Part shown: positions 20,114-55,715 of the stretch, in pieces
Layout: every line of letters starts with the position of its first letter
How positions within the stretch are numbered: the first letter of the stretch is position 1
DNA from: Aliidiomarina iranensis
GTDB taxonomy: Bacteria > Pseudomonadota > Gammaproteobacteria > Enterobacterales > Alteromonadaceae
Assembly (NCBI RefSeq): GCF_003987135.1
Contig: NZ_PIPJ01000006.1
Span: forward strand, 1-64,000
Reading direction: 5' to 3'
DNA length: 64,000 nt
Notes under the pieces: model-generated
What the model saw: the letters and a program-made list of their open reading frames with translations, nothing else
What the model was told of the DNA's origin: nothing
Database searches by the model: none
Translations under genes and position numbers: made by a program

Positions 20114-22267
<2,154 letters not shown>

Positions 22268-22315
22268 TGGTTCAATTGAACGAGCAATATTACAGTAGCG
22301 AAAGGAGATGCATAG

Positions 22316-23623
22316 ATGGCAGATACGAAAGCAGCACCGAAAGTATTAGATGATGCTCGGGGACGTTTAGAAGATATTTATGAACGCCTTGATGCGTCGG
22401 ATGATGCTCGGAATCGCTTGTCTCGGCCTCAGCAGCTAATCGAAGCATCAATACCGGTAAGAATGGATGATGGTTCGCTACAAATTTTCCCGGCGTGGCG
22501 CGTGCAGTACGATTTAACACGCGGCCCCGGAAAAGGTGGTATTCGTTTTCATCCTGATGTGAATGCAGATGAAGTAACAGCCTTAAGCTTTTGGATGGCG
22601 ATAAAATGCGCTGTGGTTGATTTGCCTTATGGCGGCGCTAAAGGTGGCGTGTGTGTTGATCCGAAGAAACTTTCGCGGATGGAACTAGAGCGCTTATCTC
22701 GCGGCTATATTCGAGCTATGTTCGATGTAATTGGACCTGATTTAGACATTCCAGCGCCAGATGTGAACACGAATGAAACAATAATGGGCTGGATGGCTGA
22801 TGAATATTCAAATATAGCGCGAGCGCAAACACCTGCGGTGATCACAGGCAAGCCCTTAGGTTTAGGTGGCTCAGTTGGCCGAGTTGCAGCTACTGGGGAA
22901 GGCGCTCTGGAAGTATTGCGGATTTGGATAGAGCAACAGGATAAAAAACCAGAAGATTTATGTGTTGCTGTGCAAGGCTTCGGCAATGCGGGCTATTACT
23001 TTGCCAAGGCTGCACTAGAGCTCGGTTTTCGAATCGTAGCGGTATCTGATTCAAAAGGTGCTGTTTATTCGAAGAAAGGCTTAGATGTTGAAGCGATTTG
23101 GAAGCACAAAAATGAAACGCGTGAATTAAAAGGTATCATTTACTCAGAATCCTCGGTGGGCGATGAGGAGGGTGTAGAAAAACTCAGCAACGATGAGTTA
23201 CTAAGCCTTGATGTTGATGTGCTAGCCCTTGCTGCACTAGAAAATGTTATTACCGAGGATAATGCCGATGATGTGCAAGCGGGCATGATTCTAGAGTTAG
23301 CTAATGGCCCAGTAACAAGTAAGGCCGACAAAGCCTTAAATAAACGCAATATTCCTGTGCTACCTGATGTGTTAGTGAACACCGGCGGTGTGATTGTGAG
23401 CTATTTCGAATGGATTCAAAATCGTACTGGTGATTATTGGACGGCAGATATGGTTCAAGAGCGGATGAATAAGCGTATTGGAGATGAGGCCGAGGCCTGT
23501 TTCAAACTTGCCAAAGAAGAAAATATCGATTTGCGCACCGCCGCTTACATGCAAGGTATACGCCGAATCACCAAAGCAATGGATGACAGAGGGAACCAAG
23601 GCTACTTCAACGGTGATTGCTAG
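22316..23623 (+). CDS. gdhA: Glutamate dehydrogenase (Glu/Leu/Phe/Val family)
   Basis: The 435-residue protein interconverts glutamate and 2-oxoglutarate plus ammonia. Family features are PGKGGIRFHP (about 68-77), the active-site lysine region GGAKGGV (about 104-110) and a dinucleotide site GFGNAGYYF near 221. The start has AAGGAG seven bases upstream. The coenzyme is not certain; the form resembles the hexameric NAD- or dual-specific type. The stop TAG ends one base before a 46-nt copy of the 3' half of tRNA-Arg begins, so an att-like junction abuts this gene. The protein itself looks full length. Confidence 0.93.
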   Translation: MADTKAAPKVLDDARGRLEDIYERLDASDDARNRLSRPQQLIEASIPVRMDDGSLQIFPAWRVQYDLTRGPGKGGIRFHPDVNADEVTALSFWMAIKCAVVDLPYGGAKGGVCVDPKKLSRMELERLSRGYIRAMFDVIGPDLDIPAPDVNTNETIMGWMADEYSNIARAQTPAVITGKPLGLGGSVGRVAATGEGALEVLRIWIEQQDKKPEDLCVAVQGFGNAGYYFAKAALELGFRIVAVSDSKGAVYSKKGLDVEAIWKHKNETRELKGIIYSESSVGDEEGVEKLSNDELLSLDVDVLALAALENVITEDNADDVQAGMILELANGPVTSKADKALNKRNIPVLPDVLVNTGGVIVSYFEWIQNRTGDYWTADMVQERMNKRIGDEAEACFKLAKEENIDLRTAAYMQGIRRITKAMDDRGNQGYFNGDC

Positions 23624-23669
23624 CCTCCGGAGGCGGAGGTCACAGGTTCGACTCCTGTCGGGCGCGCCA
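23624..23669 (+). pseudogene. 3' half of tRNA-Arg(CCG), canonical sequence, lacking the 5' half
   Basis: The 46 nt run from tRNA position 31 to the CCA end: anticodon loop CTCCGGA, GGCGG anticodon-stem strand, a normal T arm (ACAGG-TTCGACT-CCTGT) and the acceptor strand CGGGCGC plus GCCA. It is followed by a good terminator, as a real tRNA gene would be. The 5' half is absent; the gdhA stop codon lies directly upstream. It is a direct repeat of the 3' half of the tRNA at 25946 but is closer to the normal gammaproteobacterial sequence. It looks like one end (att) of an inserted segment. Confidence 0.88.
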
Positions 23670-23675
23670 ACATAA

Positions 23676-23705
23676 GAAAACCACCTTCGCGGTGGTTTTT
23701 TTATG
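23676..23705 (+). terminator. Rho-independent terminator behind the tRNA-Arg half
   Basis: AAACCACC and GGTGGTTT pair around TTCGC, followed by seven or more T. It serves gdhA and originally may have ended the tRNA-Arg transcript. Confidence 0.88.
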
Positions 23706-23818
23706 TTTTTTTGGTCGAAAAGTAATACTACCACATATCCGTAGCTGACCTCCCTTCGACCTATCCTGTAAACATCCCTCGAAATTAAGCCAATATTTTT
23801 TTAATCTTAATAGGTCTC

Positions 23819-24715
23819 TCATCGTAATAAATCCTTGAGCTTATCCATCTGCAGTTGATAAACCTCTGGGCTCTCTTTTTTAAACTTCGCCAAATTCATC
23901 AACTTCCATTTTACTGATGGAAATTGATGATAATCATAAACAGACCAGTCCGGCTCTAATTGATCAAAACTGAGCAGAAATTGCTTATCTGCCTCGTTCA
24001 AACTCCGACGTATCGTTTCTATCAGCTTGTTTCGTGTTGCTTCAAAATCAGCATAAGTAAATACAACATTACTCATGCCTTCAAACTGGTTTTCAAAAGC
24101 AGCCCTTTGGTCAAGTAAGTTGGGGGCAAGCATTTCATTTGTCGGTCGATTGCTACTAATCAGTGCGAATATAAAGCCCCGTTTGATTTCATCAGTAAAC
24201 CCTATGTTTTCCAACAATAGTTTCGTATCAAAAAGGTCACGCGGGTGCTGTCGATCCAACGCTTCACAGATTTTCCCACCGTAAAGCTGACCCAATGGCA
24301 CCACTGGCATCGCACAGAACACGTTGTATTGCTCTTGTGCTGCTGAACAAAGTGGCAGCTTTTTTGCAGGACCAATTAAGCCGCGCCCAACCATATTCAC
24401 TTCAATTTTTATTTGAACGCCATATTCACTCATTTGAAGCTTGCACACATTCGGCTTGTGCTGAATCCTAATCGTTGCTCGCAACTTATCGACACGATCT
24501 TCTATTCGCAGTAGCGCAGCATTGATTGCTGCGAGTGCTTCCGCGCGCACTTCTAACCCAACATATGTTAAGTCAATATCTACAGAAAGCCTTGGCATGT
24601 TCTGCAAGAATAAATTGATAGCGGTACCGCCATGCATTGCAAAGCAATCTTCTTTCGCGATTTCCGGCAACACATCGAGTAGCAGCTTTACCTGTCTTTT
24701 ATAAGCTTCGTTCAT
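23819..24715 (-). CDS. abiEii: AbiEii-type nucleotidyltransferase toxin
   Basis: The 298-residue protein belongs to the AbiEii/AbiGii nucleotidyltransferase family, the toxin of AbiE toxin-antitoxin and phage-defence systems. Known members are DNA polymerase beta-like nucleotidyltransferases, some acting on tRNA. The active-site region shows GGT at 29-31 and D-I-D at 46-48 (LSVDIDLTY). Its ATG overlaps the stop of the upstream abiEi gene by four bases, giving the usual antitoxin-first order. The module lies between two copies of a tRNA-Arg 3' segment. Activity against phage is inferred from family, not shown. Confidence 0.92.
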   Translation of the reverse strand: MNEAYKRQVKLLLDVLPEIAKEDCFAMHGGTAINLFLQNMPRLSVDIDLTYVGLEVRAEALAAINAALLRIEDRVDKLRATIRIQHKPNVCKLQMSEYGVQIKIEVNMVGRGLIGPAKKLPLCSAAQEQYNVFCAMPVVPLGQLYGGKICEALDRQHPRDLFDTKLLLENIGFTDEIKRGFIFALISSNRPTNEMLAPNLLDQRAAFENQFEGMSNVVFTYADFEATRNKLIETIRRSLNEADKQFLLSFDQLEPDWSVYDYHQFPSVKWKLMNLAKFKKESPEVYQLQMDKLKDLLR

Positions 24716-25482
24716 TCCATTGACTCCAGTCCCTTTGGAACAGTGATTTGATATTTCGGGATGTAAACACCGTTGGCTACTATCGCACGCTTACCCGAGC
24801 CTAGGTTTACTCTGTTTAAATCAAGGTATTTCATCCAGTCGTGATTTGCTTTCTTGGCGAGATAAAGAAATAAGCGCTTCACTTTTATTGAGCTGCAGGC
24901 TTCTAATAACATTTGTACAGATGCGGGTCGCAAGTTATTTAGGCCCTCCATAAGCTCATAAGCTTCCAGTAACGATTGTGATTTGGGTGCAAGATACAGA
25001 CATTCCATGATGGCTCTCGCTGGCTCTGATACTTTAACCATAAATTGTTTGTGCGGTATTTCGATTAAACCGATTTCCGCCGGCAGAAAGCTAGAAAGAG
25101 TGCACTTGACGTTAACCCTCCAGTCTTGTTTTTTAAACCACAGAGGCACATGCTCGCCATGAGCGCCAAATATCTGCACATGCTTTGGGGAGAGCTCTAA
25201 ATAATGCGCCTTCCCTTGCAATTCTAAGGCAGTTTTTCCGCCAGGGTGTAACGATAAACCAAGCTGTGTTTGTATGGCGTACACCCCACCGAGATAATCC
25301 ACCTGGTCGCTATAACGTATTAATGCACCCGCGCCGATGCTCTCAAACCACTGGCTTTTTTTATAGCGTTGCTGCAAATCCAGGCTGTACCCATTATCAA
25401 CAAGCCAAGATGAACAGAGCACGACGCCTGATGGTTGGGAGCTCAACAGTCGGTTTAATTTTGATGGTATATCCGTACTCAT
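24712..25482 (-). CDS. abiEi: AbiEi-type antitoxin / autoregulator
   Basis: The 256-residue protein fits the AbiEi antitoxin family: an N-terminal winged-helix domain (about 1-95, with the family-like WFESIGAGALIRYSD segment) and a C-terminal antitoxin domain (about 95-256). AbiEi proteins repress their own operon by binding inverted repeats in the promoter and neutralise AbiEii without forming a complex (type IV). A matching inverted repeat begins just upstream of this start at 25486. Only AGG is seen before the ATG, because the operator occupies the usual ribosome-site region. Confidence 0.9.
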   Translation of the reverse strand: MSTDIPSKLNRLLSSQPSGVVLCSSWLVDNGYSLDLQQRYKKSQWFESIGAGALIRYSDQVDYLGGVYAIQTQLGLSLHPGGKTALELQGKAHYLELSPKHVQIFGAHGEHVPLWFKKQDWRVNVKCTLSSFLPAEIGLIEIPHKQFMVKVSEPARAIMECLYLAPKSQSLLEAYELMEGLNNLRPASVQMLLEACSSIKVKRLFLYLAKKANHDWMKYLDLNRVNLGSGKRAIVANGVYIPKYQITVPKGLESME

Positions 25483-25485
25483 GAT

Positions 25486-25525
25486 ACTAGCCTGTTAATA
25501 ATTTGAAACTACAGGTTAGTTTATA
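25486..25525 (-). promoter_or_regulatory. Probable AbiEi operator and promoter
   Basis: ACTAGCCTGT (25486-25495) and ACAGGTTAGT (25511-25520) form a 10-bp inverted repeat with one mismatch and 15 bases between. On the minus strand a -10-like TATAAA sits at 25525-25520, so the start of transcription would fall inside the repeat. This is where an autorepressing AbiEi would be expected to bind. Confidence 0.7.
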
Positions 25526-25945
25526 TTTTCAACCATGTCATTACTAATGGTGCTAATTTTCATAAAATTTCAAACCCAAAAACCTACCGAGGATTTAAGG
25601 AAATTGTCACCCTACTAAATATTTCCTGTTCCTTCTGGCCTAAAATCAAGTTAGAAAGGTGGAATTTTTTCCACATTAAAACTCAGATTTTTCCGGAGAT
25701 TCAGAATTTTTTGTCGCGAGGCAGAGGTCAAAAATCGTCGATTTTAGGGGTGGTTTTCTTTGACCAATTTTGTCGTTGAATGGTCTCAAAAGTGCGAATA
25801 TTTTTTAGAAATCGAAAATGGCAACGCCGATTAAACCTTTGTCACGCCTAGCTTTAACGATTTACCACCGAACCCGTGACCTCACTCCGGAGGCAACAGT
25901 CATTCGGTAAATAGGCACAGTGGTTAGAAGTCAAAATTTGGAAAT
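25521..25945. other. Gene-free AT-rich stretch upstream of abiEi and tRNA-Arg
   Basis: No convincing coding region was found here on either strand. It contains a small inverted tRNA-Arg-like remnant at 25869-25893 and ends at the 5' end of the tRNA-Arg gene. The sequence is richer in A and T than the flanking core genes. Confidence 0.6.
25869..25893 (-). repeat. Inverted remnant resembling the tRNA-Arg(CCG) 3' half
   Basis: Read on the minus strand, CCTCCGGAG then GAGGTCAC then GGTTCG match the segment at 23624-23650 at 23 of 25 aligned bases, with a two-base gap in the anticodon-stem strand. After GGTTCG the similarity stops, so no T arm can form. It is inverted relative to the other two copies. 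Short length and the general conservation of T arms limit confidence. Confidence 0.5.
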
Positions 25946-26022
25946 GCGCCCGTAGCTCAGCTGGATAGAGCGCCGCCCTCCGAAGGCGGAGGTCAGAGGC
26001 TCGAATACTCTCGGGCGCGCCA
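25946..26022 (+). tRNA. tRNA-Arg(CCG) with a degenerate 3' half
   Basis: All 77 nt including CCA are present. Acceptor stem GCGCCCG/CGGGCGC, D stem GCTC/GAGC and anticodon stem CCGCC/GGCGG pair perfectly around the loop CTCCGAA, giving anticodon CCG. The T arm is abnormal: T54 is C and C61 is A, so the conserved G53-C61 pair and the T54-A58 interaction are lost. Base 37 is A where this tRNA normally has G, the target of TrmD methylation. No terminator follows. The 5' half is normal. It may be poorly functional or a pseudogene. Confidence 0.8.
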
Positions 26023-26172
26023 TTTTCTTGGCCTGTAGCGATTTTCAGCCTTACCTAACTACTCTAAATTCTTCTCTTTGCTGTTTTTCCTGCGTGACCG
26101 CTAGCTGTTGTGGCTGATTTTTCGGTGGATCAGGGCTGTGTCCATTCTGTGTCCAGATTGTGGCCGCGGATC

Positions 26173-26319
26173 TTACGCATATTTTCGGGATACTATTATT
26201 TGACCTTTAGCTTCAAAACGCTGAAGCGCCATTTCCAGTCGTCTGTCTTTCCGACACCAGACCGCGCCCAACACCATCGCCTTCTGGCCTTCGTTCTCCA
26301 GATAGACAGGCACCAGCAT
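26173..26319 (-). CDS. Small open frame, possible gene remnant
   Basis: A 48-codon frame starts MLVPVYLENEGQKAMVLG and ends RKYA. It lies out of frame with, and overlaps, the distal part of the truncated DUF4145-like gene. The same frame stays open a few codons upstream of the ATG, so it could be the tail of a longer lost protein. I do not recognise a family. Confidence 0.3.
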   Translation of the reverse strand: MLVPVYLENEGQKAMVLGAVWCRKDRRLEMALQRFEAKGQIIVSRKYA

Positions 26320-26722
26320 TGAGGCACTTATTGGCCTCAGAAAAAGAAAGCCATACTAGCTCCGGCAATCCGTATTCCGGGTAACTGAAGAGCGAAACAG
26401 GGTGATGCAACTCGTATTGGAAAGTCCAGTCAGGATCGAAATCAAACTCCCAAAACTTGGCATATATAACTTCTTGGCAGAATTCACACTGGCATAAATA
26501 ATGAAAATATCGTTCCATTAATCCATAGTCATCGTCTTTTCTAACGACAGCGAGGTGGATGGGGTTGAACTTCGTTCTTGTCTTGCAGTAAGGGCAAAGC
26601 AAATAGACCCACTTTATGCCCTTATGATCAGGTAAGTCGTTTCCTATCTGGTCTAGCTCAAACCGAGGTTGATCGTCTTCTTCAGTAGGACCAATCTTCT
26701 TATTTATTTGTGTGATCTCCAT
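26213..26722 (-). pseudogene. Truncated DUF4145-like protein with an unrelated C-terminal tail
   Basis: The frame encodes 169 residues. The first 135 look like a DUF4145 protein: a zinc-ribbon-like CPYC (about 44-47) and CEFC pair, then LPELVWLSFSEANKCLNAGA, the start of the helical DUF4145 core. After that the family's core helices are missing and the sequence turns into an unrelated Gly/Arg-rich tail, in a stretch where another frame reads more like protein. This suggests a deletion or recombination joining two genes. DUF4145 proteins are often linked to restriction and defence loci. The ATG has only a weak ribosome site. Confidence 0.55.
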
Positions 26723-27148
26723 ACTTCACTCTGAAAGCGAGTTAACATTTGTATATTGTGCGTGCTCACTTTGTCACTCGTTGAATAAGTAGTTACCTAG
26801 CTTTAAATTACTGAGGTAAAAAAGATTTCAGCCATGAAACGCTCTAAATAAGCCAAATTAATGTGAGCATGCTCAATTAGACTCTAACGAGCGCACGATA
26901 CCCAACTTTAATCTTCATTATGTAATTGATAGTAAAAGACTTAAATACACAACACAATAACAAAACGCGCAATAACGCAGAGAGAAGTGTGCCGTGCCTA
27001 ATTTGCCCGCCAAAAAGCTTACGAATGACAGGGAGGCGGGAAACCAATTAAGTTAGGCAAAATTCTAAGGTCCGGTCCTCGCTCAAACCCGCCGTTCTTC
27101 AAATCCGCTCTTCAAGGTCTCCAATATCGCCGATTGCGATTATTTATC
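26723..27148. other. Intergenic stretch with an imperfect attC-like inverted repeat
   Basis: No gene is evident. The main feature is at 26996-27058: GCCTAAT...CCCGCC...GGCGGG...GTTAGGC. The outer and inner boxes resemble integron attC boxes, but the two spacers are unequal (3 and 11 bases), which is unlike a true attC. Confidence 0.5.
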
Positions 27149-28288
27149 CTACTCCCAACACTTGTAGCCGCCGCGCGGAATGGAGGAATCGACAGCGCTA
27201 GCTGCTTGCCACGCTAGCGAGAGCGGATTCATTGCATTTGGTGTATCTTCACGATTAGTCAGTACGATAACCGACAGTCCAGTGTCGACATCTCTAATAT
27301 AGGCCGTACCGGAATAACCACCATGATTAAGGATACGGCGCCCATTCACGATCTGAGCTTGCCAGCCACGGGCGTAGCCCCAAGTGTCGCATTGTCGGCC
27401 AGTATCGAACGAACGCTGAATCTGCCATGTGGCTTCCAGCGCGTTCCGATTGATGTGCTTCGGGTTCGAAAGTTCCGCTTCCCAACGACTCAAGTCTTCA
27501 AGTGAGGACATCACACCAAAATGCGACGTCAGAGAGAACTGCCAAACTCGGCGATTTTTTTGTATCTCGCCATTTTTCCAAGCATAGCCCTGCGCGCGTT
27601 GCGGTACAATCTTGCGCTGATCTAAGAGATGTGTCTGTTCCATATCCAGAGGGCGAAAGAAATTAGCCTGCATGTAGTTTGCGTACGATTGCTCAGTCAC
27701 CTCTTCGATAATGATACCGAGCAAAAAGTATCCCTGGTCAGAATAGTTCCAATCGGTACCTGGCTCAGCGAGCATAGACGTGTTTTTTGCTGACGTCAGC
27801 ATGTCGTCACGCGAGTACTCGAGTAGGAGTACATCGTTCACCGTCCGTTCGAATCGATGGGTAAGTCCGGCTGTGTGGCTCAAAAGCTGAGCTACGGTAA
27901 TCTTGTCCCAAGCTGAAGGCGCGTCGTCAATCCACTCGACGAGTCGGTCGTCAAGGCTCAAACGCTCTTCCTCCACCAATGTCATCACCGCTAAGGCAGT
28001 CATCTGTTTAGTTAAAGACGCAATCTCGAAAACAGTTTGTGTGGTAACGGGTATTTCATGACTGAGGTTTGCCATGCCGTGGGTGCTTATATGCACAGGC
28101 TGACCTGCGCGCATTACGGTGACTGCTACTCCAGGGAAATGTCCCTCTTCCATCAGATTATTGATCCTCGCTGCGACTCGTTCGTCGTAAGGCAACTGGG
28201 GAGTGTCTTTAGCATCTACGCCATCAACCAGGCCAATCAGTAAGGTCAAAGCAAAGAAAGAATGCCAAATCGCTACCTTGAATTTCAT
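27149..28288 (-). CDS. Secreted serine hydrolase of the class C beta-lactamase / esterase family
   Basis: The 379-residue protein has an N-terminal signal peptide (cleavage near VDA at 24-26). Its penicillin-binding-protein-like catalytic motifs are SLTK at 91-94, YSD at 182-184 (the YxN position) and HGG at 322-324. Members include AmpC-like enzymes, DD-peptidases and esterases (family S12). The Asp in YSD and HGG instead of KTG point to an esterase or peptidase more than a true beta-lactamase, but this is inference. GGAG lies eight bases before the ATG. It sits in the accessory region next to an IS element. Confidence 0.88.
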   Translation of the reverse strand: MKFKVAIWHSFFALTLLIGLVDGVDAKDTPQLPYDERVAARINNLMEEGHFPGVAVTVMRAGQPVHISTHGMANLSHEIPVTTQTVFEIASLTKQMTALAVMTLVEEERLSLDDRLVEWIDDAPSAWDKITVAQLLSHTAGLTHRFERTVNDVLLLEYSRDDMLTSAKNTSMLAEPGTDWNYSDQGYFLLGIIIEEVTEQSYANYMQANFFRPLDMEQTHLLDQRKIVPQRAQGYAWKNGEIQKNRRVWQFSLTSHFGVMSSLEDLSRWEAELSNPKHINRNALEATWQIQRSFDTGRQCDTWGYARGWQAQIVNGRRILNHGGYSGTAYIRDVDTGLSVIVLTNREDTPNAMNPLSLAWQAASAVDSSIPRGGYKCWE

Positions 28289-28503
28289 CGGTGAGTCTCC
28301 ATAGTCAACAAAACTTAAGATAATGAGCTAGAGATAGTGAGATAGCGAAGCGAATGTTTTTCAAGCTAGTTGCCGCTTTTTTGTCTTGCTAGCTATAGAA
28401 TCTGCTACCCAGCTTGCTTTTTTAAATACAATGTAGACAGGTTAATTTTGATTAGCCGCTAAAGAATTCATTAAACCATCCCCATCACTTCATTTCCACC
28501 CTC

Positions 28504-28576
28504 TGTAGTGGCATAGTTAATTTGGCCACCTAATTAGAGGTGTTATCATACACCACATAGACAATTAGGTGACGTA
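28504..28576 (+). repeat. Possible relic of another IS end, with nested inverted repeats
   Basis: The stretch begins TGTAGTGG and contains CACCTAATT (28527-28535) paired with AATTAGGTG (28563-28571), and inside it GGTGT paired with ACACC. TGTAGTGG-type starts and a hairpin before the first gene are common at left ends of IS3-family elements. No transposase belonging to it remains; the complete IS begins directly at 28577. Confidence 0.35.
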
Positions 28577-28644
28577 TGGTAAGGCCTGAGATTTATAGAC
28601 ACCTTTTATGGTAAAAATGTCACTATGACCATAAGAGGAAAATC

Positions 28645-28920
28645 ATGAGTAAAGGTATTCGTTATTCCACCGAGTTTAAACAAGAAGCTGTGAACCAAGT
28701 GAAGATTCATGGCTATTCAACCGCTGAAGTGGCTGATCGTCTAGGTGTGAGCACAAAAGCAATCTATCGCTGGATTAAAGAGCTTTCAAAACCAGTGGAA
28801 ATAAGAGCGGAAGAATCGGATCTTCGCGCTGAGATTGCGCGGTTAAAACGTGAACTCAAACGTACTGAACAAGAACGAAATATATTAAAGGAAGCCGCGG
28901 TGTTCTTTGCAGGCGAGTAA
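28645..28920 (+). CDS. IS3-family transposase OrfA
   Basis: The 91-residue protein has the HTH of IS3 OrfA: YSTEFKQEAVNQV followed by YSTAEVADRLGVSTKAIYRWIK (about 25-46), then a leucine-zipper-like segment (LRAEIARLKRELKRTEQERN) used for multimerisation. It ends FFAGE, a usual OrfA end. OrfB lies in the -1 frame, open from 28869, giving 52 bases of overlap in which ribosomes could shift to make an OrfAB fusion. No standard A6G slip site is present, so the shift point is not fixed. Confidence 0.93.
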   Translation: MSKGIRYSTEFKQEAVNQVKIHGYSTAEVADRLGVSTKAIYRWIKELSKPVEIRAEESDLRAEIARLKRELKRTEQERNILKEAAVFFAGE

Positions 28921-28973
28921 AAGAACGGTACCGGTTCATAAAATCTCGTCGTGCCTGGTACCCCATCAGAGTA

Positions 28974-29798
28974 ATGTGTAAAACGCTTGGTGTGCATCCA
29001 AGTGGTTTCTACTCTTGGTTGAAAGAGCCCGTGAGTAAACGTGCCGAGGCTGATAAAAAGCTGACCGCTCAGATTAAGCAATGCTGGATTGAAAGCGGTG
29101 GTTTTCACGGGTATCGGAATATCTACCTTGATATGCGTGATGCAAACCAGTTTTGTGGCCGTGACCGCGTTTTACGGTTAATGCGCCAAGCGGCCATCAA
29201 AGCACAACGGGGATATGACGTACCGCGAGGCTACTATGGTGGTAAGCCCGACAGTGTTGCTGAGAACGAACTAAATCGCGGCTTTGATGTAGAAGCACCA
29301 AACACGTGGTGGGTTACCGATATCACGTATATAAAAACACACGAAGGCTTTTTATTTTTGGCCGTTGTAATCGATTTGTTTGCTCGCAATGTCGTGGGCT
29401 GGTCGATGAGCGACCGTATGACCGAAAATATCGCCATGCAGGCCCTCACATCGGCGTACTGGCGTCGAAAGCCAACGGGTGAGGTTAAGATACACGCAGA
29501 CCAAGGCTCTCAATATGCGAGTCTGCAATTCAGAAAGTTACTTGAGAGTTACAATATTAAACCGAGTATGAGCCGCAGAGAAAATTGCCATGACAATGCG
29601 GTTGCGGAAAGTTTCTTTAGCAATTTAAAGAAAGATAAAATCCGACGTTGTATTTACGAAACGCGAGCAGAAGCTAAGCAGGCGGTGTTTCATTACATCG
29701 AGATGGTTTACAATCCGAAACGGCGACATACGAATAACCAACGTGTGTCACCAAACAACTTTGAACGTGAGTATTTTAAGCAACTAGAAGGTGTCTAG
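28974..29798 (+). CDS. IS3-family transposase OrfB (DDE catalytic domain)
   Basis: From the first ATG the frame gives 274 residues, but the homology starts earlier (VKERYRFIKSRRAWYPIRVM before this Met), so the functional product is probably an OrfAB fusion made by -1 frameshifting. The HTH_21 segment is followed by the rve-type integrase core with the catalytic acids in WWVTDITYIK, IHADQGSQYAS and HDNAVAESFFSNLK. Nothing is broken, so the element may still be active. Confidence 0.93.
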   Translation: MCKTLGVHPSGFYSWLKEPVSKRAEADKKLTAQIKQCWIESGGFHGYRNIYLDMRDANQFCGRDRVLRLMRQAAIKAQRGYDVPRGYYGGKPDSVAENELNRGFDVEAPNTWWVTDITYIKTHEGFLFLAVVIDLFARNVVGWSMSDRMTENIAMQALTSAYWRRKPTGEVKIHADQGSQYASLQFRKLLESYNIKPSMSRRENCHDNAVAESFFSNLKKDKIRRCIYETRAEAKQAVFHYIEMVYNPKRRHTNNQRVSPNNFEREYFKQLEGV

Positions 29799-29819
29799 AA
29801 TACTCAGGCCTTACCAGTC

Positions 29820-30314
29820 TTAAGCGCCGCCCCTTATCAACCTTCTATTTGTAAGCTGAAATCCATTTAGAACACGTACGTCTAATTGTTTACTTTGCGA
29901 ACTAAAATCTCGTATTTCTCCTAAATTCTTATCAAAAATATGATGACGCGTGAGCAATGACTCGGATCCATCAAATCTTACGAGTAGCGGCCGATATGCC
30001 GTTGTGTTATCACCGAACCCGACAAAGTACATACCTTTCAACACTGAAGAACCCACTTTATTATCTCGAGTTACAGTGCCATTTTCTAAATCAAAAATAA
30101 TCGTATCGGGTGCTTTCTTGAACTCTAAATAGTCATTAATAAGAATGTAGAATATCGCAATGAAGGCAGTCGTCAGTAAGATAAAAATTTTGGTATCCAC
30201 ATTTCCACTTGATATCAGCCAAGCCGCACTCAAGAAAACCGGCGAAAATGCCAATAATGCTATCGTAATATTCTTAAACAACAGAGAGCGAACTTTTTTT
30301 CCTTGTATTTTCAT
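29820..30314 (-). CDS. Hypothetical membrane protein next to the IS
   Basis: I do not recognise a family. The 164-residue protein has two hydrophobic segments near the N-terminus (about 18-38 and 44-62) and a mainly beta soluble C-terminal part (DTIIFDLENGTVTRDNKVG onward), resembling small membrane-anchored PH-like proteins in outline only. The stop lies four bases outside the IS right end, so the IS may have removed the original C-terminus. ATG 30314 is chosen over a TTG three codons earlier. Confidence 0.6.
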   Translation of the reverse strand: MKIQGKKVRSLLFKNITIALLAFSPVFLSAAWLISSGNVDTKIFILLTTAFIAIFYILINDYLEFKKAPDTIIFDLENGTVTRDNKVGSSVLKGMYFVGFGDNTTAYRPLLVRFDGSESLLTRHHIFDKNLGEIRDFSSQSKQLDVRVLNGFQLTNRRLIRGGA

Positions 30315-30369
30315 CTTTGCCAAATATCCTTAAGCAAAAGCCTACCAAGAGGCCTAAATTTTCTAAACA

Positions 30370-30909
30370 CTAATCATTCACTGGGCCGTGCGTTACGCGT
30401 TGAAACTGCTCGATATCGTAACCCCAAGCATAGGCTCGGGTGGTTACTTCATCTATCAAGCCTTGGCTTGGCCGCGGTGAGCGCGATAATAGCCAGAAAT
30501 AATCCTTACTATCACTCACAACAACCGCATATTCATAGTTACTGCCGAGTTCAGCAATATAGTAGCCGCCATTAAACGGCCAAAAGAAGGTTACGCGGAA
30601 ACCCGCTTCCATTCCGGGCACCGGTTCCGCGCTTGCTGTTGCGGTTTGCCATTCACCTTTCTTCCGGTTGTAGCCTTTGTTGGTAACGTGAATGGTGCCA
30701 TCTTCGTTAAGCCGATATTCAGCGGTTACATTATCCAAATCTTTTTCAAAGCGGTGGGGCAAACGTAAAATCGAATACCATGTGCCCATATATCGCTCGG
30801 GATCAAGGTTGGCAATAGGCTTCACTGCAGGATTTGGCTGGCTTGAAAAATTAATGTAGGCCCAACCCGCAAGCGCAAGAACAATAATAAATAGCAGTAA
30901 TTTTTTCAT
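30370..30909 (-). CDS. blc: Lipocalin family protein (Blc-like)
   Basis: The 179-residue protein is a bacterial lipocalin. The signature GTWYSI begins at residue 42, with the family's later PFNGGYYIAEL and YAVVVSDSKDYFWLLSR strands. Blc-type lipocalins bind lysophospholipids or fatty acids at the envelope. Here there is an uncleaved-looking N-terminal hydrophobic helix (about 3-17) and no lipobox cysteine, so it may be membrane anchored instead of lipidated. ATG 30909 has AGGA eight bases upstream. Confidence 0.92.
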   Translation of the reverse strand: MKKLLLFIIVLALAGWAYINFSSQPNPAVKPIANLDPERYMGTWYSILRLPHRFEKDLDNVTAEYRLNEDGTIHVTNKGYNRKKGEWQTATASAEPVPGMEAGFRVTFFWPFNGGYYIAELGSNYEYAVVVSDSKDYFWLLSRSPRPSQGLIDEVTTRAYAWGYDIEQFQRVTHGPVND

Positions 30910-31063
30910 TTTTTCCATCCTAAAGCCCTTCATGCTTGGCCACAACCTTTGGCCGCAAATTCGCGTTTGCAGAGCAGCTGTTCCAGCGAAGGTTTGTCAT
31001 CAACTAAAGTATCTTACCTTTAACTGCGAATGTTGAGCAATGATTTAGGCATAGCAAGAAAGT

Positions 31064-51141: not shown

Positions 51142-51192
51142 AATAATGGTGCCCGGAGGCGGAATCGAACCACCGACACGAGGATTTTCAAT
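51142..51192 (-). repeat. attL: 51-bp direct repeat, 3' part of tRNA-Phe
   Basis: This copy is identical to 55635-55685 over 51 bp. Bases 51147-51192 are the 3' half of tRNA-Phe on the minus strand, from the anticodon loop to CCA. The rest of the tRNA is absent here. It marks the far end of the integrated element. Confidence 0.95.
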
Positions 51193-51560
51193 TAGTTTTA
51201 GCGAGAATTACTAATTTACGGCAGTCAATAATATCAACCAGTTGCGGCGTCTACGATGTTCAGTACTTAGATATACAGCTATCTAAACCATGCGATATTG
51301 GTACAATTTTGGTACAATCAGTGGTATCTTATGTCTAATTAGTTTTTTGAGAGTTTTTAAGCATTACGCTTTACTGGTCGGATGAGTTAAAAGCTAAAAG
51401 TGTATTATAGTATGTACATCAACACATACCGGAACCACTTAGTGGGGTGTTGTGTCGGGTGAATAAAATCATCTCCTAGCCTGAGAGCAGGATAACCAAA
51501 GACTAGACCGATATTTCCATAAAGGAAACGAAAAGCCGCTTTAAAGCGGCTTTTTTGTTG
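51193..51560. other. Non-coding left end of the element: arm-like repeats, hairpin and terminator
   Basis: No coding region is evident. GGTACAA occurs at 51300 and 51311 (11-bp spacing), matching repeats near the other end. CAACAC (51420-51425) pairs with GTGTTG (51447-51452) around an inner CCAC/GTGG stem. A strong terminator AAAAGCCGCTTTAAAGCGGCTTTTTT lies at 51531-51556, so a short RNA ending there on the plus strand is possible; on the minus strand the same hairpin ends the next gene. Confidence 0.6.
51531..51556. terminator. Strong bidirectional terminator in the element
   Basis: AAAAGCCGCTTT pairs with AAAGCGGCTTTT, with six T following. It lies five bases beyond the stop of the minus-strand gene at 51561. 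Confidence 0.9.
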
Positions 51561-52049
51561 TTAAAATTTGTTCCCGTTGACTTTCCTATATACTACATCT
51601 GTCCATTTGTACTTCTTGCCCTTTGGCAAGGTGCTTCTACCCCATTGCTCAACTTCGTACGCTGATACAACTTGGAGTTTCAAACAGTTATCGCGGTTGG
51701 CTGGTTTTCGTAGTTCAAAAAAAACCGAGTAATCATTCGAATCTAAATGAAAAAATTGTTCAGCACGGTTTTTTGATAGATATCGGGCTACATAACCATT
51801 TTGCAATGATTTCTTCAGCATATTAGGTAAGTCGAAGCTGCTATGGTAACGGCTCAGACTAAAATACCGACTTTCACCTCTAAAGTTCACTTCGTATTCA
51901 TTTTGTTTTTCATCCGTGAACACATGAAAGCCATATGTAACTAATATCTCTATCCGTTGCTCTGTTGAAAGTTCCGTAAACATCGAGTGAGGATGAAGAT
52001 GGTTCAAATTATAGTTTATATCATTGAAGTTATATGGCTTCCAACGCAT
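51561..52049 (-). CDS. Hypothetical protein, element cargo
   Basis: I do not recognise a family. The 162-residue protein has no signal peptide or membrane segment. It looks like a mixed alpha/beta soluble protein with many aromatic residues (FRGESRYFSLSRYHSSFDLP) and a basic C-terminus. AAGGGA lies five bases before the ATG, so translation is likely. It is read opposite to the replication and integration genes and has its own terminator, as is usual for cargo genes in small integrative elements. Confidence 0.65.
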   Translation of the reverse strand: MRWKPYNFNDINYNLNHLHPHSMFTELSTEQRIEILVTYGFHVFTDEKQNEYEVNFRGESRYFSLSRYHSSFDLPNMLKKSLQNGYVARYLSKNRAEQFFHLDSNDYSVFFELRKPANRDNCLKLQVVSAYEVEQWGRSTLPKGKKYKWTDVVYRKVNGNKF

Positions 52050-52197
52050 TTGATTCCCTTCTAAATAGATTCTGCGTAGATATTTACATCTAATTCGTTT
52101 ATTTAATATTAGGGTACATGAATTCCCTAGTGAGTGCTTCTTAGTTTTGCGTTACTGTAAATCATTCTTAAATCGTTTTTAATATGTAAAGAGGGGA

Positions 52198-52209
52198 CCC
52201 GCTTGCGGG
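52198..52209 (+). repeat. Short perfect GC-rich hairpin upstream of the 268-residue gene
   Basis: CCCGC and GCGGG pair around TT in otherwise AT-rich sequence, 40 bp before the start of the next gene. It could be an operator or a rolling-circle origin hairpin. Confidence 0.4.
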
Positions 52210-52248
52210 GAATCGCTTTCGCACAGAAAATAAGGGAATCTTCATCTT

Positions 52249-53055
52249 ATGGACGAGAAAGAAATCAATATTCTTGACCAGCTTCACGACCTATTGAAGG
52301 ACGGTAAAAAGGAAGAGCGGGAGTTCTTCGATTTATTAGCATTAAACCCCGAGGGAAGGGCCAAGCTCGAATCTAAATTAGAAAGCTGGGCAGAACTCTA
52401 TTCGCTTACATTTCTTGAATTCATGGCTTTATTTGTCGTGATATCGGGAGCATCCAGCCTCATTGAGCAAGCAAATCAGCACGAATCACGCTCCGATATC
52501 CAACTGGCATTTTTAGAACAAATGGAAAGCTTTGATATCTCACTTTCGTCACTAAGTGAAGCGCTCGGGGAAGATGAAGCCACCGCATGCATGATGCAAT
52601 TTGTGTTCGCGTTGCAACACAATATGAAAGCCATTGCGCGAAGAAACCGTTCCATAAATACGATGCTCGAACAAATTCGCAATAGAGTTGATAACTATGA
52701 AGAAATAATCTTTGAGGCTATCGCTATTGATCCAGCAGTTGTGAGTAACTCGGAAATAGCCAATTTTATCGCGTTATGGGTGGTTGAGCAAAACACAGAT
52801 CGTTTAACCAAGCTTTCCAAGGCTATTATCGGCAAATATCCGATCGGTAAACGAATCGTTGGCCTTGATGACATGCGAATGATGATTGCTGTACAGGAGG
52901 AAGTCACGGGCAATTTAGATGCTGAATCAGTCTATGAAATGAGTATATTGTTCAACCTCATTGCGGAAGGTAACGATTTGGAAGCTGCTATTCGCAAACA
53001 CCTGCAACGGCGCAAGCATGATACAAGGACGTCAAACGGCCAATCGACGTCCTAA
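52249..53055 (+). CDS. Hypothetical helical protein upstream of rep
   Basis: I do not recognise a family. The 268-residue protein is predicted almost wholly helical and acidic in the N-terminal part (MDEKEINILDQLHDLLKDG), with a moderately hydrophobic segment at about 52-72 (LTFLEFMALFVVISGASSL) and a basic C-terminal end (IRKHLQRRKH). AAGGGA lies 11 bases before the ATG. It is the first of four plus-strand genes ending with int and lies 58 bp before rep, so a replication-control or cargo role is possible. Confidence 0.7.
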   Translation: MDEKEINILDQLHDLLKDGKKEEREFFDLLALNPEGRAKLESKLESWAELYSLTFLEFMALFVVISGASSLIEQANQHESRSDIQLAFLEQMESFDISLSSLSEALGEDEATACMMQFVFALQHNMKAIARRNRSINTMLEQIRNRVDNYEEIIFEAIAIDPAVVSNSEIANFIALWVVEQNTDRLTKLSKAIIGKYPIGKRIVGLDDMRMMIAVQEEVTGNLDAESVYEMSILFNLIAEGNDLEAAIRKHLQRRKHDTRTSNGQSTS

Positions 53056-53113
53056 ACATTCAGATATTCGTGTATAGAGTAGGAAACCTCTTTCAAACTA
53101 TGAGGTTTCTACC

Positions 53114-54373
53114 ATGTCGAAAAATGAGCCCAACCCAACCACCGTGGACGCCGCCAAGCGGTTTGCTTCGCAGAAGGAAACTGCTTTCGGTGTCGAAAGT
53201 CTTTTGCCGCACTTAGAAGGTGCGCCACCTAGTAACACAGCACCCCCAAAATACCAAAACACTGAAATTATAAGAACAGGTATTGATAGCTTGTATCTTT
53301 CTTTTCACGGTTCAGCCCGTTTAAACCTGCTTTCTCGCTTACAAGAATTAAAAGAAATAGCCAAAAGCACAAGGTGCAGAGATGAGCGGACGCCGCCAGC
53401 GCTGCACCTTGCTGGTATCAAATTTATCGTAAAACCCAAAGGCCAAAGCATATATCCCTTTGTCTTGTTCAATAACCATTTTGTTATTCGCGTAGCGAGT
53501 GAAGCAAGCTCCAACGCTCCGCCCGTGTATATGCAAATATCCAGCGAACTACTCACGATGCATGGGTACGATGCTGCGCTTGAAATGTCACGTAGAATTG
53601 CAGGCCAAATTGTCGCTGACTGTAATCAAGGCACTATCAGTCGTGTGGATCTGTGTTGTGATTTTACCACTGAGCTGGATTGGCTAAGTGTTGATCCGAT
53701 AGCGTGGGTATGTCGCTCAAATAAACGCAGTGAATATCGAGAGGCGAATGAATTAACAGGCTATGTGTTTGGGAAAAGTGGCGATGTATTAGCCCGCCTT
53801 TATGATAAAACTCGTGAGATAGAAGTGAGCGAAAAGAGCTTCTTTAAAGAGATCTGGAAATTACGCGGGTGGGATGAAGAACAAACGGTATGGCGTCTTG
53901 AATATCAGATTCGGCAAGCTTTTTTAAAAGATACCGCATCAACCAACCCCGATACCTTTATCGATAAAATGAACTCGGCTTGGAATTACTTAACGTCTAA
54001 TTGGCTTTCACTTCGCCTGATTTCTCTCAATGATGGGAATAGCTCACGTTGGCCACTTCACCCTGATTGGAAAGTGTTATGTGATGCGCGGTTTAATCAT
54101 GTAGGCGTTGACGATATTCGCCGAGCACGATTTGAAGTATTACCGAGTGACTACAGCATTTTTACGGGTGCCCTCGGTTATCTCACCAGCTTTATGGTGA
54201 AGCATGAGCATCAGACTATGACGCAAGCCCTTGCCGCTTTTTATGATGCAGCTGAAGAGCACTTTAAAATCGATGATAAGCGGCATGAAACATTTGCGCA
54301 TTATGTGCAAACAAAACTGGCTGAGAAACGCATCAAGTTTGTGAAGCTGAAACAGATTGGGGAGCTGGAGTAA
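53114..54373 (+). CDS. Replication initiation factor family protein (Rep_trans)
   Basis: The 419-residue protein fits the Rep_trans family of rolling-circle replication initiators and nickases, which includes plasmid RepC/RepD types, Tn916-type Orf20 and the filamentous phage protein RstA. Visible motifs are IRTGIDSLYLSFHG, SRVDLCCDF (about 176-184), RLYDKTREIEV (about 232-242) and TVWRLEYQIR (about 259-268). GAGG lies eight bases before the ATG. Together with xis and int it forms a close-packed operon. The nicking tyrosine cannot be picked with certainty. Confidence 0.82.
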   Translation: MSKNEPNPTTVDAAKRFASQKETAFGVESLLPHLEGAPPSNTAPPKYQNTEIIRTGIDSLYLSFHGSARLNLLSRLQELKEIAKSTRCRDERTPPALHLAGIKFIVKPKGQSIYPFVLFNNHFVIRVASEASSNAPPVYMQISSELLTMHGYDAALEMSRRIAGQIVADCNQGTISRVDLCCDFTTELDWLSVDPIAWVCRSNKRSEYREANELTGYVFGKSGDVLARLYDKTREIEVSEKSFFKEIWKLRGWDEEQTVWRLEYQIRQAFLKDTASTNPDTFIDKMNSAWNYLTSNWLSLRLISLNDGNSSRWPLHPDWKVLCDARFNHVGVDDIRRARFEVLPSDYSIFTGALGYLTSFMVKHEHQTMTQALAAFYDAAEEHFKIDDKRHETFAHYVQTKLAEKRIKFVKLKQIGELE

Positions 54374-54379
54374 TGCCGT

Positions 54380-54712
54380 ATGAACACATTCAATCTGCAA
54401 GAGGCCGCACAATACCTGTGTATGTCCGCATCCCACTTGGCCGAATTAGCCCGTGGGAAGCGCATCAAAGCAGCGAAACCTGGCAAACGTTGGGTGTTCC
54501 TCGAAAAAGACCTTGTGGAATACCTGGATGCTTTATATGCTTTTGGTGTGAACACGCCGCAACAAGGTTGTGATGAGGAGGAATCATCATGGCATTGTAT
54601 AAACGTGGGAACCTCTGGTGGACTCGCTTCACGGCTCCAAACGGAGAGAGAATATCTCGCTCTACTGGCACCGACGAAAAGAAGCAGGCGCAAGAGTACG
54701 AAGATAGCCTAA
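54380..54712 (+). CDS. xis: Excisionase-like HTH protein
   Basis: The 110-residue protein starts with a MerR/excisionase-type HTH (FNLQEAAQYLCMSASHLAEL, then GKRIKAAKPGKRWVFLEKDLVEYL). Such proteins direct integrase towards excision. GGAG precedes the start, which lies seven bases after the rep stop. The 3' part overlaps the integrase gene by 124 bp in another frame; the HTH domain is before the overlap, so the tail may be only a read-through extension. Confidence 0.8.
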   Translation: MNTFNLQEAAQYLCMSASHLAELARGKRIKAAKPGKRWVFLEKDLVEYLDALYAFGVNTPQQGCDEEESSWHCINVGTSGGLASRLQTEREYLALLAPTKRSRRKSTKIA

Positions 54713-55704
54713 AGAGCGAAGCTTGGCGGGTGTATAAACTGGGTGAACAACCAAGGCGAACGTGGCGGGAAACTGTGGTTCGCTGGTTACAGGAGAAAGC
54801 TTACAAGGCGGATGCTAAAAAAGACTTAGGGAAGCTGCGTTGGCTGGATCCATATTTAGGGCACCTTTATCTTGATGAGATTAACCGCGATGTGGTTGAT
54901 CACATTAAGGCAGTGAGAGCAAAGGAAGCATCGACGACAACGGCCAATCGTTACTTGGCGCTTATACGCTCAATACTGCGTATGGCTCGGGATGAATGGG
55001 AGTGGGTCGATCGGATTCCAGCGGTAAAACTGTTTAAGGAGTCAAGAAAACGTATTCGCTGGTTAACCCCCGATGAAGCGGATCGATTGTTAGAGGAATT
55101 ACCGCGGCACTTGCGTCTTATGGCTCAGTTTTCATTGGCAACGGGTTTGCGCCAATCGAATGTGAGTTATTTGCGTTGGGATCAAGTGGATGTTGAACGC
55201 GGGTTTGCGTGGATCCATCCTGATCAATCAAAATCAGGAAAGGCCATTAACGTTCCTTTAAATAACGATGCGGTATCGGTGTTGCGAACGGTGCAAGGTG
55301 AACATCCGCAGTATTGTTTTGTGTATCAAGGCAACCCTGTGGAGCGAACATCGACAAAGGCATGGCATGCAGCGTTAACCCGAGCGGGTATTGAAAATTT
55401 TCGTTGGCACGATTTACGGCACACGTGGGCGAGTTGGCATGCTCAACGTGGCACTAGCTTACAAGAGCTTCAAGAGCTAGGTGGCTGGGCATCATTTGAA
55501 ATGGTTTTGCGCTACGCCCATCTTGCAGGGCAACACTTAAAACAGGTTGCGGGCAATGTGGATGGTACATGTGGTACAAAATTGGTACAAAGCCAGAAAA
55601 CAAAAAGCCCCGCTATTGCTAGCAGGGCCTTTGAAATAATGGTGCCCGGAGGCGGAATCGAACCACCGACACGAGGATTTTCAATCCTCTGCTCTACCAA
55701 CTGA
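54589..55704 (+). CDS. int: Tyrosine recombinase (integrase) whose 3' end lies in tRNA-Phe
   Basis: The 371-residue integrase has an N-terminal AP2-like arm-binding region, a core-binding domain (about 55-150) and the catalytic domain with Arg188 (ATGLRQSN), His274 and Arg277 (WHDLRH) and nucleophile Tyr309 (MVLRYAHL). AGGAGG lies just upstream of the ATG. Residues 351-371 are encoded by the opposite strand of tRNA-Phe; the stop TGA is inside the tRNA gene. Using the left att sequence instead, the frame would end ISFSENY, so the gene stays complete when the element is a circle. Confidence 0.95.
   Translation: MALYKRGNLWWTRFTAPNGERISRSTGTDEKKQAQEYEDSLKSEAWRVYKLGEQPRRTWRETVVRWLQEKAYKADAKKDLGKLRWLDPYLGHLYLDEINRDVVDHIKAVRAKEASTTTANRYLALIRSILRMARDEWEWVDRIPAVKLFKESRKRIRWLTPDEADRLLEELPRHLRLMAQFSLATGLRQSNVSYLRWDQVDVERGFAWIHPDQSKSGKAINVPLNNDAVSVLRTVQGEHPQYCFVYQGNPVERTSTKAWHAALTRAGIENFRWHDLRHTWASWHAQRGTSLQELQELGGWASFEMVLRYAHLAGQHLKQVAGNVDGTCGTKLVQSQKTKSPAIASRAFEIMVPGGGIEPPTRGFSILCSTN
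55564..55590 (+). repeat. GGTACAa repeats near the right end, probable integrase arm sites
   Basis: GGTACAT at 55564, GGTACAA at 55573 and GGTACAA at 55584 lie 45-71 bp inside the right repeat. GGTACAA at 51300 and 51311 lies inside the left repeat in the same orientation. Spacing of 9-11 bp is close to one DNA turn. Confidence 0.6.
55600..55630 (-). terminator. Terminator for tRNA-Phe, inside the integrase gene
   Basis: On the minus strand GCCCTGCT and AGCGGGGC pair around AGCAAT, followed by TTTTTG. It lies nine bases past the tRNA 3' end and is carried by the element, replacing the chromosomal one. Confidence 0.85.
55635..55685 (-). repeat. attR: 51-bp direct repeat within tRNA-Phe
   Basis: It is identical to 51142-51192 and covers the 3' half of the intact tRNA-Phe plus five bases beyond CCA. 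The crossover should fall in the anticodon loop/stem part of the repeat. Confidence 0.95.
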
Positions 55705-55715
55705 GCTATCCGGGC
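55640..55715 (-). tRNA. tRNA-Phe(GAA)
   Basis: The 76-nt gene has acceptor stem GCCCGGA/TCCGGGC, a regular D arm, anticodon loop TTGAAAA (anticodon GAA), a normal T arm (GGTGG-TTCGATT-CCGCC) and encoded CCA. It is intact after integration of the element, which supplied its 3' half and its terminator. Confidence 0.97.

Follow-up and report, generated by a model that had tools for sequence, protein, structure and literature searches.

The abiEi-abiEii module that lies directly downstream of gdhA in a 64,000-nt stretch of the Aliidiomarina iranensis genome (assembly GCF_003987135.1, contig NZ_PIPJ01000006.1, positions 1–64,000; hereafter, the window) is probably an integrase-less unit of the kind known as cis-mobilizable elements (CIMEs). 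The unit likely belongs to a family of islands that we define here by sequence comparison, whose members appear to integrate at tRNA-Arg(CCG) genes in Idiomarinaceae, and it seems to be stacked on the remnant of an older element at an ectopic site. Complete units of the family share one plan: the 3' half of the tRNA containing the core CTCCGGAGG, P' arm repeats, cargo, and a 239-bp P arm that ends in the same core. The AbiE unit in the window has the P arm and its core at 25655–25893, and the 3' half with the core at the other end (23624–23669).

The abiE genes are the only recognized genes between the two cores, and no PF00589 (tyrosine integrase) match was found there. Both genes are on the minus strand: abiEii (23819–24715; 298 aa; PF08843 and PADLOC AbiEii) encodes a predicted nucleotidyltransferase, the type IV toxin, and abiEi (24712–25482; 256 aa; PF11459 and PF17194, PADLOC AbiEi) encodes the predicted antitoxin and repressor. 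This is the same adjacent pair as in other AbiE type IV toxin-antitoxin systems, with nothing unusual found in the window genes, and the recognition of the module between tRNA pieces from the sequence alone was thus borne out by Pfam and PADLOC. A search with AbiEi_1 (PF09407) is uninformative, since it gave no match in the own genome or in any control genome.

The right end of the unit was established by comparison with 50 loci encoding AbiEi relatives, of which 11 are close (L125–L132, L172–L174): ten belong to Idiomarina, Pseudidiomarina, or Aliidiomarina, and the eleventh to a gammaproteobacterial metagenome-assembled genome. The whole P arm, situated in the window at 25655–25893 on the plus strand and 80% identical to an Idiomarina loihiensis copy, is present at eight of these loci (L125–L128, L130, L172–L174); L131 has its first part, and L129 and L132 have none. 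At six loci (L125, L126, L130, L172, L173, L174), the homology runs unbroken through AbiE, arm, and core to 25894–25895 and then gives way to the tRNA-Arg 3' half. Therefore, the unit ends on the right with the core at 25885–25893, and not with the tRNA at 25946. At L128, arm and 3' half are separate from AbiE, and L127 (Aliidiomarina maris, genome G005) continues, like the window, into a linker and a full tRNA. Over 2194 bp, the A. maris block of AbiE, arm, and tRNA shares 90% identity with that of the window; the best gdhA match detected in A. maris is 63% identical in protein, a difference in favor of horizontal transfer. A stretch matching approximately 24202–24650 of the window is absent from abiEii in six records (L128, L129, L130, L172, L173, L174), which suggests that a shortened toxin gene has spread together with the units.

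These boundaries bear on the sequence-only reading, in which the 5' half of the tRNA at 25946 was paired with the 3' half at 23624 and recombination would release a 2,353-bp circle carrying abiE and a complete canonical tRNA-Arg. The two 46-nt repeats (23624–23669 and 25977–26022) are indeed direct, 2353 bp apart, 87% identical, and not a chance match (E = 1.2e-9 across the whole genome); moreover, joining 25946–25976 to 23624–23669 yields, as read from the sequence, a canonical tRNA whose anticodon stem is matched. However, AbiE units homologous to this one terminate at the core 25885–25893, upstream of the 25946 tRNA; the stretches fetched from genomes G004 and G014 contain the linker and the tRNA piece but no AbiE; and the genome keeps a separate intact tRNA. 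Such a circle is hence very unlikely, and the proposed pairing of the two halves was abandoned with it. The circle that we would predict for the integrase-less unit measures approximately 2,260 bp (25885 minus 23625); P arm, core, and 3' half would meet at its junction, and neither the 5' half nor a complete tRNA would be part of it.

On the left, the intact host gene gdhA (22316–23623, plus strand; glutamate dehydrogenase, Pfam ELFV_dehydrog) ends with its stop codon at 23621–23623, and the 3' half of tRNA-Arg(CCG) begins at the next base. This half (23624–23669, plus strand) is one copy of the 46-nt repeat and forms the left attachment site, with the core CTCCGGAGG at 23625–23633. It is followed by an intrinsic terminator-like hairpin of 17 pairs (23669–23707, plus strand), 97% identical over 39 nt to the terminator behind the tRNA-Arg(CCG) gene on contig C1 of the same genome; the fold z-score of 23670–23708 is -8.1, and the Rfam matches to STnc130 and the rnk leader over the hairpin are both under their cut-offs. 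The repeat search and the hairpin thus confirmed the earlier observation of a 3' half with a terminator directly after the gdhA stop. The attribution of this half to the host's own tRNA did not hold: its T stem is ACAGG/CCTGT vs. AGAGG/CCTCT in the C1 copy, and it is identical to the I. rhizosphaerae tRNA at 46 of 46 positions. Two observations argue against a simple foreign origin. Firstly, the same T-stem type is found in genus members G008 and G014. Secondly, the terminator is of the genus type. A minus-strand 120-aa open reading frame (ORF; 23372–23734) that crosses the 3' half is probably an artifact.

The association of the P arm with tRNA-Arg(CCG) was assessed in 19 stretches, mostly selected around 3' halves or AbiE, with copies of at least 200 nt counted. 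The arm is present in 22 copies in 14 of the stretches, and 18 copies run directly into a tRNA-Arg(CCG) 3' half. The remaining four are the copies in the window and A. maris, which continue into linker and full tRNA, a copy in G011 with 29 nt of the 3' half, and one of those in G378. Among loci fetched by the arm alone, 9/12 adjoin a 3' half, the other three being those of A. maris, G378, and G011. In a survey of 395 family genomes, the arm was found in 21 genomes from four genera, with up to 93–94% identity outside the query's Idiomarina-like genus; no more than two candidates were scored per genome, so that copies per genome are lower bounds, and coordinates show that some of the surveyed genomes coincide with those that carry the AbiEi loci. 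The alignment of the arm contains 20 rows, of which G066 and L173 represent one place.

No match to the arm was found among 50,697 phage records, and an exact 21-mer taken from it is absent from IMG/VR. A plasmid search with the arm and the 3' half returned 52 records, and the ten matches listed cover only the tRNA part (query positions 225–282), so that they are uninformative on the arm. The sequence-only reading had suggested that the module may be a small integrase-less circle or satellite or, alternatively, the remains of stacked insertions. Its insertion, the tRNA-derived recombination sites, the lack of an integrase, and the stacking all find support in the present comparison; the phage satellite does not. 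That candidate, or a Tycheposon, was rejected, within the reach of these collections, on the searches of phage records and IMG/VR and on the absence from the unit of recognized genes for phage packaging or replication, which we take to be features of such elements.

The most extensive array was observed in I. loihiensis SN11, where eight matches to the 3' half pattern are spread over 80 kb (2197917 to 2277505), the first of them inside a full tRNA-Arg(CCG); the array also contains an additional degenerate 3' half copy and five complete arm-bearing units. No PF00589 match was found between those at 1753251 and 2471114. A Pfam scan of nine proteins from the array identified a UvrD-type helicase, BcsE and BcsC of cellulose synthesis, an outer-membrane efflux protein, an AcrB-type pump, a mutator-type transposase, HipA, AbiEii, and a catalase. 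PADLOC, applied to twenty proteins, reported AbiEii, helicase-domain matches, and one marginal match; the assignment of the UvrD helicase to a GajB defense system was rejected, as the PADLOC match rests on the helicase domain. Shorter arrays are present in P. homiensis and P. gelatinasegens. A split arrangement in relatives without abiE was named as evidence that would refute the sequence-only reading; it was observed by half, in that units with other cargo share the same 3'-half and arm boundaries. Hence, the arrangement belongs to the island family and not to AbiE.

Most of the units carry no integrase. Fifteen of the 18 complete arm-bearing units come from genomes that were searched with PF00589, and a tyrosine integrase is found inside a single one, in Pseudidiomarina sp. 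CB1 (G066). The three others (two in G378, one in G216) gave no tblastn match with 15 query proteins, one of which, from L120, is the reading frame opposite the recombinase gene. There are three PF00589 matches in the CB1 unit, one under the curated cut-off. The integrase nearest the tRNA has 398 aa with Arm-DNA-bind_2 and Phage_integrase domains, and its orthologs (69–74% identity) lie between the tRNA and a displaced 3' half in G002 and G012, and at most 10 kb downstream of the tRNA in G004 and G006, where the far end of the island was not seen. This integrase family is thus present at tRNA-Arg(CCG) in five genomes (G002, G004, G006, G012, G066). More distant relatives (55–56%) were observed away from tRNA-Arg(CCG) in G011 and G014, together with a broken one (30%) in G011. 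Judging by its place and domains, the CB1 integrase may recombine the arm-core sites. The window genome has no cognate integrase, the best match to the CB1 protein being 24% identical. Three of the integrase-bearing islands also contain a pair of large neighboring proteins (approximately 750 and 970–1010 aa) with weak integrase domains, namely G066:C1 1676894–1682058, G004:C7, and G002:C3; the pair is 29–35% identical between the islands.

The insertion site of the window unit is not a tRNA-Arg(CCG) gene, the usual location in the island family; the unit sits between gdhA and a lipocalin gene (30370–30945, minus strand; PF08212), which forms the right host flank. The closest relative, G004, has an empty site, where approximately 30 bp separate the end of gdhA from that of the lipocalin gene; collinearity with it ends at 23618 and restarts at 30380, so that approximately 6.7 kb is inserted in the window, with a GC content not distinct from that of the right flank. 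The two genes are adjacent also in G002, as read from the sequence. A native order of gdhA and tRNA that was split by the insertion was rejected, as no tRNA piece follows within approximately 320 nt of the gdhA end in any of the 12 relatives in which that end was read. It might be supposed that the junction of gdhA with the tRNA piece was created in assembly, by the joining of unrelated DNA through the tRNA repeats, the genome being a draft of 36 contigs. However, the repeats are short (46–94 nt) and only 87–91% identical, and host collinearity restarts on the far side, which makes an artifact extremely unlikely.

To the right of the AbiE unit lie the remains of an older insertion. The linker (25894–25945, plus strand), which ends in TAGAAGTCAAAATTTGGAAAT, separates the core from the second tRNA-Arg(CCG) and is probably part of the older attachment region; the same linker type with a full tRNA is present in A. 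maris, G004, and G014. A first tRNA that is cut past its core and then followed by the linker and a complete second tRNA-Arg(CCG), with the 5' end 93–94 nt on, was observed in G002, G004, G006, G013, and G014 (loci L075, L106, L201, L202, and L095), and no AbiE was found within the stretches fetched at these loci. The element at these loci seems to bring a whole tRNA gene and not only a 3' end. Beyond the second tRNA of the window, the segment 26023–26200 (plus strand) contains TGTGTCC-type repeats, and 26027–26167 is 77% identical to the sequence behind a 3' half in G004. Because of this match and of the occurrence of linker and tRNA without AbiE in relatives, we assign the segment to the P' side of that insertion. 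As in A. maris, the AbiE unit would be placed at the core of this older element, a stacking that is apparent from sequence comparison; its order and mechanism are our proposal. The rest of the older insertion (26201–30369) comprises a 169-aa ORF, a gene of the serine beta-lactamase fold family (PF00144; 27149–28288), an IS3-type insertion sequence (IS) element at 28577–29816, and a 167-aa ORF at the right edge. The last is present in 2/16 other genomes of the genus and gave no clue to the lost right end.

The second tRNA itself (25946–26022, plus strand) is complete but damaged. It is the sole tRNA-Arg found by ARAGORN in the whole window and by Rfam in 22000–30500, with an Rfam score of 56.8 bits vs. 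69.3 for the C1 copy. The A37, C54, and A61 of its 3' half, noticed in the earlier reading, were read directly from the sequence; they result in a G53-A61 mismatch and the loss of G37, the residue beside the CCG anticodon that is normally methylated. The concern that this copy is the only tRNA-Arg(CCG), with decoding of CGG codons dependent on it, was dispelled by a whole-genome search, which found a canonical gene with a terminator on contig C1 (284339–284415). The sequence upstream of it is promoter-like and resembles, by eye, the tRNA locus of relatives. With the C1 gene intact, the damaged copy is therefore redundant, and it would have decayed beside it. No promoter-like site was found ahead of the second tRNA on its strand in a scan that is not discriminating, as such sites were overall fewer than in shuffled sequences.

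Insertion sequence debris marks the left side of the AbiE unit. The first piece is a 61-bp remnant (23706–23766, minus strand) of the left end of what we take to be an IS30-type insertion sequence. It is 92–93% identical to copies in G012, G013, G014, and G016, and 97% over 60 nt to that in G004, with which it shares the junction with the terminator; the copy at L088 leads into a transposase-like ORF. The adjoining 23767–23818 (minus strand), beside abiEii, is tentatively a decayed end of IS3 type, by visual comparison of TGTAAACATCCCTCGAAATTAAG with TGTAATCCCCCCGAAAAATCGGAG at the same place in relatives, and it failed a 3-mismatch search for that end. The AbiE left edge of the relatives was also considered as a transposon end of AbiE's own and rejected, as copies elsewhere lead into a transposase-like frame, presumably of IS3 type. 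Both sides of the insertion thus appear decayed: the AbiE unit lacks its P' arm, and the right edge of the older element has neither arm nor core.

This debris raises the question of whether the block was brought to gdhA by insertion sequence activity or homologous recombination, without an integrase and with the tRNA pieces as passengers. The IS30-type remnant, the possible IS3-type end from 23767, the absence of a core at the right edge, and the IS3-type element at 28577–29816, which has no target duplication, are consistent with such an origin; the last point is weak, since the G004 copy lacks a duplication as well. On the other hand, the left edge falls exactly where the attachment core begins, one base past the gdhA stop, which is not expected from movement of insertion sequences, and we consider this origin unlikely.

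The mechanism that we propose for the integrase-less unit starts with a tyrosine integrase of approximately 400 aa with an arm-binding domain, encoded in larger islands, which would recombine core with core in trans; alternatively, the same recombination could occur in cis after accretion. The older element, with its linker, its own tRNA, and TGTGTCC repeats, would have entered the non-tRNA site between gdhA and the lipocalin gene. Subsequent insertion sequence events may have replaced the P' arm of the AbiE unit by the terminator and remnants, and may also have deleted the older element at its right end. AbiE would serve as stabilizing or defense cargo, in keeping with what such systems are known to do. 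With one of its arms replaced by the terminator and the debris, the unit has probably lost its mobility.

Several observations weigh against this interpretation. Only the right attachment site of the unit is complete; after the left 3' half, the P' arm repeats of the full plan are replaced, by reading, by the terminator and insertion sequence remnants. At 30369, the right edge of the insertion, P arm and core are both absent, which leaves a single junction as the basis for integrase-driven entry at gdhA. G004, the closest relative, has no core behind gdhA; CCTCCG directly follows the gdhA stop in one of the 12 relatives read, the more distant G008, where GCCTCCGAG is a possible native core that we do not use as proof. 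In the integrase-bearing Aliidiomarina islands (G002, G004, G006, G012), BLAST found no full-length 239-bp arm, with a partial arm in G002 and a diverged one, by eye, in G004, and an integrase and a full arm occur in one unit only in G066. Finally, G007, another member of the genus, contains a more distant AbiE pair (G007:C1 1911000–1922000, L205; 76–77% identity for both proteins) near tRNA-Arg(CCG), where the 239-bp arm was not detected, and AbiE accordingly reaches the tRNA-Arg(CCG) locus by other ways too.

The kind of element is known. The CIMEs of Streptococcus, derived from integrative and conjugative or integrative and mobilizable islands, are outlined as having kept their attachment sites, lost the genes of integration and transfer, and formed tandems at the same site (PMC5704250). 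Compared with that outline, the window unit likewise has attachment sites, of which the left lacks P' arms and may not function, no integrase or transfer genes inside, and a tandem position with another island; it differs in its non-tRNA site, in the replaced arm, and in the absence of a cognate integrase from the genome. CIMEs adjoin an integrase-bearing element that mobilizes them in cis; the AbiE unit works like a CIME, and strict membership fails on this helper. In Dehalococcoides, tandem islands at ssrA are marked by repeats of the RNA gene 3' end, and 15 without an integration module were suggested to be CIMEs (PMC3146451). As far as that account describes them, they resemble the present family in the tandem units, the 3' end repeats, and the frequent absence of the integration module, and differ in the use of a serine recombinase, tmRNA, and a 20-bp repeat instead of a tyrosine integrase, tRNA-Arg(CCG), a 46-nt repeat, and a 239-bp arm. 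CALINs (clusters of attC sites lacking integron integrases), described as cassette arrays that can be served by an integrase encoded elsewhere (PMC11389934), are similarly arrays of integrase-free units, whereas the islands here are approximately 2–25 kb long with phage-type attachment sites and, in terms of that description, are not attC cassettes.

The island family and its ectopic, decayed member in the window are undescribed as far as our literature search goes; among the papers listed, it found no account of tRNA-Arg(CCG) arrays in Idiomarinaceae. The 239-bp arm with the 46-nt tRNA 3' half is diagnostic for mostly integrase-free units in at least four genera, so that movement of integrase-less islands in trans and the minimum size of a unit become testable. 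The window shows a possible fate of such a unit: an arm lost, insertion sequence debris, and a spare tRNA decaying while the intact chromosomal copy works. A more far-reaching possibility, speculative and rather doubtful, is that tRNA-Arg(CCG) hosts a reassortable, integron-like cassette system across genera, defined by arm, core, and 3' half, in which a single integrase family moves mostly integrase-free units about in trans, sometimes to places outside tRNA genes, with AbiE as the smallest unit.

Elsewhere in the window, a tRNA-Phe gene (55640–55715, minus strand) overlaps the 3' end of a tyrosine integrase gene (54589–55704). The protein end from this overlap recurs at 51143–51208 (86% over 22 aa), and the region 51143–55715 is probably a separate element of approximately 4.5 kb in tRNA-Phe.

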